Below, one piece after another: positions 50,081-52,882 of a stretch of 64,000 nt of DNA. The notes beneath the pieces were generated by a model. The model saw nothing but the letters and a program-made list of their open reading frames with translations. It searched no databases and was not told the DNA's origin. The DNA is from Halobacteriovorax sp. Lineage in GTDB: Bacteria; Bdellovibrionota; Bacteriovoracia; Bacteriovoracales; Bacteriovoracaceae. Both the position numbers and the translations under genes were made by a program. The number at the start of each line of letters is the position of its first letter. Position 1 is the first letter of the stretch. The stretch lies in NCBI GenBank assembly GCA_002720865.1, contig PBIO01000011.1:62001-126000 (forward strand). Reading direction: 5' to 3'.

Positions 50081-50749
50081 ATTAAACTCCTCAGTTTTGT
50101 TATTCTCTTTTTGATCAGCACTCCTGGCTTTGGCTCTCAAGAGTGGACTCTGGTAGAAAAACAAGACAAGATTCAGCTCTACTCCGGCTCAAAACCTATA
50201 GATGATATTTATCCCTATAAAGCAAAAGTCTGGCTTCCCTACACCATCCCTGAAATTCTGGCGGTCTTTCTTGATAGCAAAAGAAAAAAAGAATGGGTTC
50301 CAAGGCTATGGGAAACCTGGATTGAGAACGAATCAATTAAAACCGGAACCAGAATTGAATATGCCGAAATACTTATTCCTTGGCCCTTTCAAAACCGGGA
50401 TGTCTTAGTAAAAATAGAAACCAAAGTTTTTGAAGATATCAATCATATCGTCCTTCTTGCGACCTCTGTTCAAAACGACCGAATCATCAAGGCCTCTGCC
50501 GTCAGGGCCATTGTTCACCCAAGTCGCCTAACCCTAAAATGGGACCCCATAAAAAAAGAAACCTCTCTAGAAACCGTCGCCTTCACCGACCCCAGAGGCT
50601 ATATCCCCGCCTGGATTGTAAACCTTTTCCAAAAAACCGAAGCCGTAAACCTCGTCGAATCCCTTAGAAAACAGCTGGCCAAAAATCTTTATTCAAAAGA
50701 ATATCTGTTAGAAATAAAAGAAGGACTGGAAGGAATTCGAAAACAATAA
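50081..50749 (+). CDS. Secreted START-domain protein, probable ATT start
   Basis: A 222-residue exported protein. Residues ~30-210 match a START lipid-binding domain: KAKVWLPYTIPEILAVFLDS, RKKEWVPRLWETW, IPWPFQNRDVLV, AFTDPRGYIPAWIVNLF. A complete signal peptide (KLLSFVILFLISTPGFG) is encoded only if translation begins near 50081. In that frame there is no ATG, GTG or TTG between an upstream stop and the TTG at 50111, but AGGAGGAAGT stands directly before ATT. I therefore place the start at ATT 50081; the TTG at 50111 would lose most of the signal. It lies eight bases after the DsbD-type gene. A 28-bp repeat begins two bases past the stop. Lipid cargo unknown. Confidence 0.75.
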   Translation: MKLLSFVILFLISTPGFGSQEWTLVEKQDKIQLYSGSKPIDDIYPYKAKVWLPYTIPEILAVFLDSKRKKEWVPRLWETWIENESIKTGTRIEYAEILIPWPFQNRDVLVKIETKVFEDINHIVLLATSVQNDRIIKASAVRAIVHPSRLTLKWDPIKKETSLETVAFTDPRGYIPAWIVNLFQKTEAVNLVESLRKQLAKNLYSKEYLLEIKEGLEGIRKQ

Positions 50750-50750
50750 A

Positions 50751-50778
50751 GGTACGCGTTTCCTTTTCCGGATTTCAG
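50751..50778. repeat. 28-bp inverted repeat, left arm
   Basis: The arm starts GGTACGCGTTTCC and pairs with 51769-51796 at 27 of 28 positions (the one mismatch is six bases from the arm's inner end). It begins two bases past the stop codon of the START gene. Confidence 0.9.
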
Positions 50779-50863
50779 TAACTTAAAGTGGATTTTGGAA
50801 ACCTTGGTACATAGATCTTTCAATCAACCTATTAGTAAGAGACTCTTTTAGGTATAAAGGCCC

Positions 50864-51760
50864 ATGCAAATTTTAACTAAAGTAATACTCTTAGCAGCCC
50901 TTTTTTACCAAGTCCCAGGTTTATCAAAGTCTGTAACTTTAGAATCCGAATCTAATTTTAGAAAGGATGTAAAAGTCAGATTACCTAGAGGTTTTAAGAA
51001 AAAAGAAAAATGGCCACTCATAATTTCTATGCACGGATATGGAGGAAGCTCTTTAATTCAAAGTTACTATTTAAGACTTAGAAAATATAATAATAAATTT
51101 GGTTTTGTCTACGCGGTTCCTAATGGCCTGAAAAATAAAGATGGAAAAGCCTATTGGAACGCTAGTAATTTTTGCTGTGACTTTGATAATAAAAATATCA
51201 ATGATGTTAAGTATATTGAAAACCTCATTGAGGAAATTTCTACTTCAAAAAGAATCAGCAGAATTGATCCCGATAGAATCTATCTCATGGGATATTCTAA
51301 TGGAGCTTTTCTCGCTTCAAAGATAGCTTGTGAATCAGATCTAAGAATTGCAGGAATAGTTACAATCTCTGGAACTAGTGATCTAAGAGACCAAAATGGG
51401 AACCTACTCCCGAAAGATAAACTAAATTGCTCCCACAACCGCCCAATTAAGGTACTTCATATTCACGGAGATTTGGACAGCACTATAAGGTATGAAGGCT
51501 TTGACAATGGAAAGACCGCTCATGTCTCCGCAATTGCTCAGACCAAACGCTGGGCAATTCATAATGGTTGTAAGGGCGATTTAAAAAAGAAAGACTATAA
51601 GTTAAACGCGACCAACTTTATGCGTGGTAAAGACACTGAAGTTTATGAGTTTAGCGATTGTGCCGCTCCAGTAAAGCACTTTAAGATTCTAAAGGGAGTA
51701 CACTTTGGAATCTTCAAGAAAAAATTTACTAAGGCCATGCTTAACTTCCTTTTCCTTTAA
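50864..51760 (+). CDS. Secreted alpha/beta-hydrolase esterase (LpqC / PHB-depolymerase-like)
   Basis: A 298-residue exported esterase. Signal peptide to about residue 22. Motifs of the LpqC/feruloyl-esterase/PHB-depolymerase group: oxyanion segment ISMHGYGGS, nucleophile Ser145 in GYSNGAF, acid Asp203 or Asp205 in HIHGDLDST, and catalytic His280 in KGVHFG. FCCDF and a further cysteine pair late in the chain suggest disulfides. Candidate substrates are short polyhydroxyalkanoate chains or aryl esters; neither can be fixed. The gene is A/T-rich compared with both neighbours and is enclosed by 28-bp inverted repeats, so it may be an inserted cassette. Confidence 0.88.
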   Translation: MQILTKVILLAALFYQVPGLSKSVTLESESNFRKDVKVRLPRGFKKKEKWPLIISMHGYGGSSLIQSYYLRLRKYNNKFGFVYAVPNGLKNKDGKAYWNASNFCCDFDNKNINDVKYIENLIEEISTSKRISRIDPDRIYLMGYSNGAFLASKIACESDLRIAGIVTISGTSDLRDQNGNLLPKDKLNCSHNRPIKVLHIHGDLDSTIRYEGFDNGKTAHVSAIAQTKRWAIHNGCKGDLKKKDYKLNATNFMRGKDTEVYEFSDCAAPVKHFKILKGVHFGIFKKKFTKAMLNFLFL

Positions 51761-52882
51761 TTAAGTATCTGAATTCCGGAAAAGGAAACGCGTACCAAAG
51801 ATATATTCCGCGTCTATTTCGATCTGTTCGAGACTTTTTCTATTATCGATTTCAATTCTGACTGTGCCCATGAGCTTTTCCATGGTTTCGATATAGTCTA
51901 TTTTGTTAAAGCTTAGGTAGTCTTTCCATTGCCAGATATTATGGGCCAAGCGCATCGACATTGGCATGGCAGTAATCCCTTTATCTAAGAGCTTTTTTGT
52001 TAGGGCCACTGAGTTCTCTAGGGAGTCTTGGCGCAAGTATAAAGTTGAGCAGCACTCCCCTTCTACAATTTGGGTACCAAGCTTTTTAGCGAGAATTTCT
52101 TTTCTCTTTTTATTTTCTTCTATTATGGAGTCTACTTTTTTGAGCTGCACTCTAAGCATAGCTCCGGATAATTCAGAGACTCTCATAGAGCTTCCAAGGA
52201 TTGTCTCCATGCCTTCAAACATCTTTTTATATTTTGGATTCAGCCCAAAGGCATGATCGCTAACTAATTTGAGTTTTAATCCAAGAGCCCCGTCATTTGT
52301 AGTGATGGCTCCTCCTTCCCCACAGGTAATTGTCTTTTCCATATTAAAGGAAAAGCAACCTAGATCGCCAAAGCTGCCCAGCCTTTTGCCCTTGTATGTT
52401 GCACCTAGGGCCTGGGCGCAGTCTTCAATCACAAAGAGGTTTTCTTTTTTAGCAAAATCACAAATTTTATCAATCTCACAAGGCCTTCCATCCATATGGA
52501 CAGGAATAATCGCCTTAGTCTTTTTAGTTACTGCCTCTTTTATAGAATCTAGTTCTAATAGAAATTCGCTTCCAATATTAACAACGACGGGTGTAGCTCC
52601 TACAGTTAAGACCGAGCTTATAGTAGCAAAGAAGGTATAAGCAGGAACAATAACCTCATCACCTTCTTTTATATCAAGGGCCCGAAGGGCCGCAACCAAG
52701 GCGTTGGTTCCACTATTAACCAGACAAGATGAACTGGTGCCGATAAATTCTGAAAACTCTTTTTCAAAGCTATCACATTCCGTAGCTTCTTCTCTATGTC
52801 GAAAGAGATGGCCACTCTCAAGGACCTTTTTAAGAGCCTCTAGTTCCTGATTGTCTATTAAGTGTTTATTACTCAAGTTCAA
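51761..52882 (-). CDS. DegT/DnrJ/EryC1/StrS-family aminotransferase
   Basis: A 373-residue PLP enzyme of the sugar aminotransferase family, which makes amino sugars for lipopolysaccharide, capsule or glycoproteins. Features: NSGTNALVAAL, VPAYTFFATISSVLTVGATPV in two parts, EDCAQALGATYKGKRLGSFGDLG in two parts, and the PLP lysine in FSFNMEKTITCGEGGAI. The MDGRP in place of the more common LYGQP and a short C-terminal region are unlike the sugar enzymes with known substrate, so I leave the substrate open. The last ~10 residues are encoded by the right repeat arm and may be an added tail. It overlaps the gpsA end by 14 bases. Confidence 0.85.
   Translation of the reverse strand: MNLSNKHLIDNQELEALKKVLESGHLFRHREEATECDSFEKEFSEFIGTSSSCLVNSGTNALVAALRALDIKEGDEVIVPAYTFFATISSVLTVGATPVVVNIGSEFLLELDSIKEAVTKKTKAIIPVHMDGRPCEIDKICDFAKKENLFVIEDCAQALGATYKGKRLGSFGDLGCFSFNMEKTITCGEGGAITTNDGALGLKLKLVSDHAFGLNPKYKKMFEGMETILGSSMRVSELSGAMLRVQLKKVDSIIEENKKRKEILAKKLGTQIVEGECCSTLYLRQDSLENSVALTKKLLDKGITAMPMSMRLAHNIWQWKDYLSFNKIDYIETMEKLMGTVRIEIDNRKSLEQIEIDAEYIFGTRFLFRNSDT
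51769..51796. repeat. 28-bp inverted repeat, right arm
   Basis: Reverse complement of 50751-50778 with one mismatch. It lies within the last codons of the minus-strand aminotransferase gene, encoding GTRFLFRNS just before its end. Confidence 0.9.

Follow-up and report, generated by a model that had tools for sequence, protein, structure and literature searches.

RAYT and TIRYT transposases are widespread, and the prevailing view is that most are domesticated or move short repeats only. TIRtrons, or TIRYTs, are described in passages of two papers (PMC3733652; PMC6006769) as Y1 genes lying between long inverted repeats that have no relation to GTAG REPs, and the same passages have these repeats dispersed between genes as singles and dimers. 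Most are linked to subclass 2.1, according to part of the later account (PMC6006769), and the motif GGGGWSAS is said in part of the other to occur in the majority of published TIRs while not being required of all (PMC3733652). REPINs are paired inverted repeats, and a Y1 transposase, the RAYT, presumably mobilises them in trans (PMC3116915). A literature search for passenger genes on RAYT/TIRYT elements turned up no paper, which is not proof that there are none.

The locus considered here lies in a window of 64,000 nucleotides from the genome of Halobacteriovorax sp., where an esterase gene stands between two inverted arms. It resembles a mobile insertion cassette in having transposon-type ends around one gene and no transposase. 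Mobile insertion cassettes, however, use the ends of DDE insertion sequences, whereas the ends here are of the Y1 type, with no consistent target duplication, and movement of the gene is only putative. The pairing of inverted arms recalls REPINs, and the Y1 proteins of this genome match the RAYT model below its cut-off. Unlike REPINs, the arms are not GTAG/CGTC-tagged palindromes, they are 0.3-1 kb apart rather than about 0.1 kb, and their copy number is low (PMC3116915).

Inverted arms around an esterase gene

The first-pass annotation of the window saw arms at 50751-50778 and 51769-51796 that match at 27 of 28 positions. They do, and the repeat in fact extends to 36 nt (50751-50786 and 51761-51796), of which 33/36 positions (92%) are identical. 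In random 64-kb sequence of the same composition, the expected number of such pairs no more than 2 kb apart is about 2e-8. On a PWM for arm ends derived from 30 arms, the left arm scores 50.8 bits, and shuffled sites all score below 8. The features of the locus are these:

50111..50749, + strand: START-domain gene, upstream neighbour (profile match; congener synteny)
50751..50786, + strand: left arm, terminal inverted repeat of the W type (repeat search, seven genome copies, PWM)
50787..50863, + strand: leader of 77 nt from the left arm to the esterase start
50864..51760, + strand: esterase gene, intact (Pfam, NCBIfam, homologue alignment, PDB match)
51761..51796, - strand: right arm, inverted copy of the W repeat (repeat search, genome copies, PWM)
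51761..52882, - strand: DegT-type aminotransferase gene, convergent (profile match; 3' end is arm sequence)

One base separates the stop codon of the START-domain gene from the left arm, and the right arm, with its outer end GGTACGCG at 51796, directly abuts the stop codon of the esterase. The bracketed unit is 1,046 bp long. As the annotation had it, the arms enclose one gene and no transposase gene. The product of the one gene is a 298-aa alpha/beta hydrolase; because the esterase is the sole ORF between the arms, the unit is at most non-autonomous. No sigma-70-like promoter was found on the + strand of the leader. Rfam families gave no match within the locus and nothing above threshold at related loci.

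The esterase gene runs from an ATG at 50864 to a stop codon at 51758-51760, is present in one copy in the genome, and has a GC content of 0.355, the minimum among the 43 long ORFs of the window, which bears out the earlier remark that it is more A/T-rich than its neighbours. Its product matches Pfam Abhydrolase_2 at 1.8e-11 and a feruloyl esterase in the PDB (9j07) at 1e-8; the closest named NCBIfam models, PHA depolymerase/feruloyl esterase-like, score below their cut-offs. The nucleophile motif GYSNG is present, the D and H are conserved, a signal peptide is probable, and the C-terminus is intact when aligned with homologues of 58-64% identity.

The right arm also encodes the final 11 residues of the aminotransferase (GTRFLFRNSDT) and its stop codon. 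Here (51761-51796) a mobile arm appears to have been captured as coding sequence, replacing the native aminotransferase tail seen in alignment.

Positions at stop codons, one of them supplied by an arm, could mean that the arms serve adjacent genes, say in forming 3' ends or stabilising mRNA, and are kept for that irrespective of mobility. I consider this quite improbable, in that the W arm folds no better than shuffled sequence and relatives lack arms at given sites. A REP-like hairpin in the arm was likewise rejected: the W arm does not fold and has no internal hairpin. One end flanking a Y1 gene was checked for folding and showed a weak fold (z about -2.4).

The same site in related species

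Two congeners, G001 and G002, which differ by about 20% or more in DNA, both lack the esterase. Homology with G001 breaks off 7 bp short of the left arm and restarts 17 bp past the right arm, and between these flanks G001 has a response-regulator gene and a dehydrogenase gene. The junction in G002 holds two ORFs, one of them a Nudix gene, and the aminotransferase is missing. In both congeners the START-domain gene adjoins a dsbD-like gene. To judge from these arrangements, the junction between the START-domain and aminotransferase genes is a spot of gene turnover. A precise absence of the unit was looked for, and the gene is indeed absent; however, since the junction is filled by other genes in both congeners, neither provides a clean empty site.

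Nor does conserved synteny of the gene in relatives, which the annotation had raised as an argument against mobility, come to light. Homologues exist in other genera of the family Bacteriovoracaceae, where they are not linked to the neighbour genes of the window and none has arms around it. In genome_contigs no relative was confirmed.

The arms resemble the ends of Y1 transposase genes

There are four Y1_Tnp genes in the genome, all of them elsewhere than at the esterase locus, with the HuH motif NHYH and the tyrosine motif Y-x-Y-QNP. Three lie between inverted ends that share the pattern of the arms, and the fourth has one recognisable end:

C19, inverted ends of a Y1 gene: GGTACACGCTTCCTTTTGGAG
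C31, inverted ends of a Y1 gene: GGTACGTGGTTACTTTTCGCG
C9, inverted ends of a Y1 gene: GGTTCCATGTACCTTTTGGGG
C14:1113642, single end of the fourth Y1 gene: GGTACCTGGTTACTTGT

The consensus of these ends is GGTACNNGNTTMCTTTT..TCANNTACTTA, and the inner part, TCANNTACTTA, is common to most ends. Transposase genes with similar ends, which the annotation had proposed to look for, do exist as to the shared pattern, but exact W-type ends are found at none of the Y1 genes here. Against the NCBIfam RAYT model the Y1 proteins reach 1e-18 to 1e-20, which falls short of its cut-off. Many of the Y1 genes in related genomes of the family are framed by GGTAC-like inverted repeats, each unit measuring about 690-900 bp.

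Because they are alike to the ends flanking Y1 genes in the same genome, the esterase arms would belong with the terminal repeats published for TIRtrons/TIRYTs. As far as the passages of PMC3733652 and PMC6006769 describe these, the likeness is in three respects: repeats of the same kind flank Y1 genes here, none of them exactly W; the 36-nt arms are long, have no GTAG tag and are not stem-loops; and they are dispersed in the genome as singles and dimers. The differences, on the same partial view of the two papers, are that the arms begin GGTACGCG and the ends GGTACNNGNTTMCTTTT rather than GGGGWSAS, that no HTH domain was found at the C-termini of the Y1 proteins here, and that a complete TIRtron has a transposase gene inside whereas the esterase unit has none. 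A dimer that brackets a host gene, as here, goes undescribed in those passages.

A genome of a related genus has an end pair of 2,060 bp enclosing a Y1 gene together with an AAA_14/DUF4143 gene (L151:1552-3611; G016 C32:16551-18610). The latter gene is a possible passenger on a TIRtron.

Copies of the arm across genomes

In this 4.9-Mb genome the W arm, GGTACGCGTTTCCTTTTCCGGATTTCANNTACTTA, occurs seven times, as three inverted pairs and one solo arm. A look for further copies, which the annotation had called for, accordingly yielded six besides the left arm, with two more inverted pairs among them:

50751-51796 of the window, + ... -: W pair around the esterase
C14:1251172-1251584, + ... -: W pair around a native 116-aa gene
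C14:735633-735928, + ... -: W pair
C31:52195-52215: W solo arm

With six of the seven arms falling into + ... - pairs, the arrangement is far from random: in 200,000 random placements, two pairs were never obtained. This genome-wide work rests on pattern searches, in which solo arms do occur alongside pairs. A scan of the family's 128 other genomes, allowing no more than 1 mismatch in 18 nt, recovered no W arm, G016 and G076 having near-matches, but of a different end type, and the exact 21-nt core was not found in the 84,980 species genomes of genome_contigs.

At orthologous sites, arms that are of the W type here are of another type, GGTACACGCTTCCTTTT, in G001, and 3/3 shared arms have changed alike (L020:5173 against L121, G001 C47:5489; L019:4634-4929 against L119, G001 C24:10803-11043). 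In the second of these the interior between the arms differs too. The switch of type looks like concerted replacement, or else re-insertion at the same spots. G001 has five arms (L161, L162, L121, L119) and no Y1 gene was detected in its assembly, which is 81%-complete; arms may outlive their transposase.

Several other occurrences are worth recording. G002 has a 250-bp arm pair on C1 (L163:1233-1483) and, 10 bp away, a gene that by its N-terminal sequence appears to encode another esterase, of the PHB-depolymerase type; the search used found no relation to the window esterase. Two sites 70 kb apart (L038 and L039; G000 C10:17258 and C10:87259) are identical over the stretches shown, which suggests a large duplication or an assembly repeat. 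In a more distant family, the ends of short palindromic pairs of the GGTACC(A/T)G type lie no more than 57-58 bp apart (L165 and L166 in G116, L029 in G122), and a similar end may exist there in REPIN-like form.

A MITE distinct from the arms, about 250 bp long (ends CTGACCTACTACCATGGTGATGAA..) and with target duplications of 8-9 bp, is present here in several copies (L223, L224, L225, L228) and was not found in the two congeners. Degraded copies lie inside two transposase-free arm pairs (L049:1501-1845 and L019:4634-4929). The 119-bp interior common to the two pairs was for a time counted as shared cargo, an argument dropped because that interior belongs to this unrelated MITE family.

Mobility of the arms

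Evidence of movement comes from C20:81050-81394, where a transposase-free arm pair of 345 bp is precisely absent from both congeners; at this site G001 has two convergent genes 13 bases apart. Comparison of the three genomes thus shows arms to be mobile by lineage-specific insertion, if only when they are paired and lack a transposase gene.

The W pair at C14:1251172-1251584 has a different history. The 116-aa gene that it encloses is syntenic in both congeners; in G001 it has just a left arm, and in G002 it is free of arms. The copy in this genome ends in codons made of arm sequence. Since the pair encloses a native gene that is one-armed in G001, brackets can apparently form in place around resident genes, and a bracket around a gene is therefore not proof of a cassette. 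The right arm could instead have been lost in G001 rather than gained here.

The same native gene keeps a single orientation across the three species. This bears on the proposal that the esterase is an invertible switch, turned round by recombination between its arms, for which the inverted arms around a single gene give the ground and for which no evidence emerged. No invertase is seen in the unit, where the esterase is the only ORF, arms of 36 bp offer little length for homologous recombination, and such a switch is extremely improbable.

Target duplications are not consistent over the arm pairs. At the esterase, where the annotation advised looking for one, there is nothing beyond an ambiguous AAA/AAA, and C14:1251172-1251584 alone can be cited, with ATGA on both sides. 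From what is known of the families, this fits Y1 rather than DDE chemistry. It also counts against the view that the unit is a non-autonomous derivative of a DDE insertion sequence (a MITE or mobile insertion cassette), given that duplications of 8-9 bp are present at a true MITE in this genome. Near-perfect terminal inverted repeats of 36 nt with no internal hairpin are what such a derivative would have, but the arm pattern flanks Y1 genes, not DDE genes, and I regard this origin as very improbable.

How the bracket may have formed

I propose that the arms are two inverted copies of the terminal repeat of a Y1 (HuH-tyrosine, IS200/RAYT-like) element of the TIRtron/TIRYT type, and that a Y1 transposase acting in trans puts such ends into gene junctions, singly or paired. 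Action in trans is the natural reading because Y1 transposases of the arm type are encoded elsewhere in the genome; the enzyme would be one of this kind, and the ends would be inserted by the single-strand chemistry of the Y1 family. The esterase was presumably acquired by this species, or lost by its congeners, at a spot of gene turnover. The bracket most likely formed around it where it stood, as at the native gene on C14, although the order of events could have been different. That the arms were inserted around an acquired esterase, forming the bracket in place, stands evenly between right and wrong in my estimation.

I favour it over the other account, that the esterase replaced a transposase gene and the 1,046-bp unit was moved here in trans by a Y1 transposase, which I hold only tentatively as the less probable of the two. 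In size the unit falls among the Y1 units (about 690-900 bp, with one of 2,060 bp), the 345-bp pair was inserted as a unit with no transposase, the G016 pair holds a Y1 gene plus an AAA_14/DUF4143 gene, the esterase is A/T-rich and lacking in congeners, and its site is a convergent junction, like that of the 345-bp element. Yet the esterase has a single copy, no empty site and no clear target duplication, its homologues have no arms, and the sister pair on C14 encloses a native gene. The W arm, moreover, was seen in no other genome searched. Any esterase brought in from one of the sampled genomes therefore arrived without W arms, and a cassette would have needed bracketing in this lineage beforehand. 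Bracketing in place is then the shorter story, because the cassette would itself need that prior step. What the annotation suggested, a minimal cassette moved in trans, is upheld as regards apparently mobile ends of Y1 type, transposases elsewhere and an inserted 345-bp pair, and not as regards movement of the esterase with them.

Arms put in around a standing esterase have points against them as well. Insertion of a unit explains equally that both arms are of one type and that congeners lack the gene, no Y1 gene of the genome has W-type ends, the right arm on C14 may have disappeared from G001 rather than been added here, and no movement was observed.

Implications

A more general idea is that Y1 (RAYT/TIRYT-like) single-strand transposases mobilise in trans any 0.3-2 kb between inverted ends, the esterase and the G016 ATPase gene included. 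I think this unlikely, if still worth stating. If bracketing in place is the rule, then inverted ends around a gene are by themselves no evidence of a cassette, and annotation should be cautious. Ends of the Y1 type around whole genes, with cases both of insertion as a unit and of bracketing in place, would make the movement of host genes testable.
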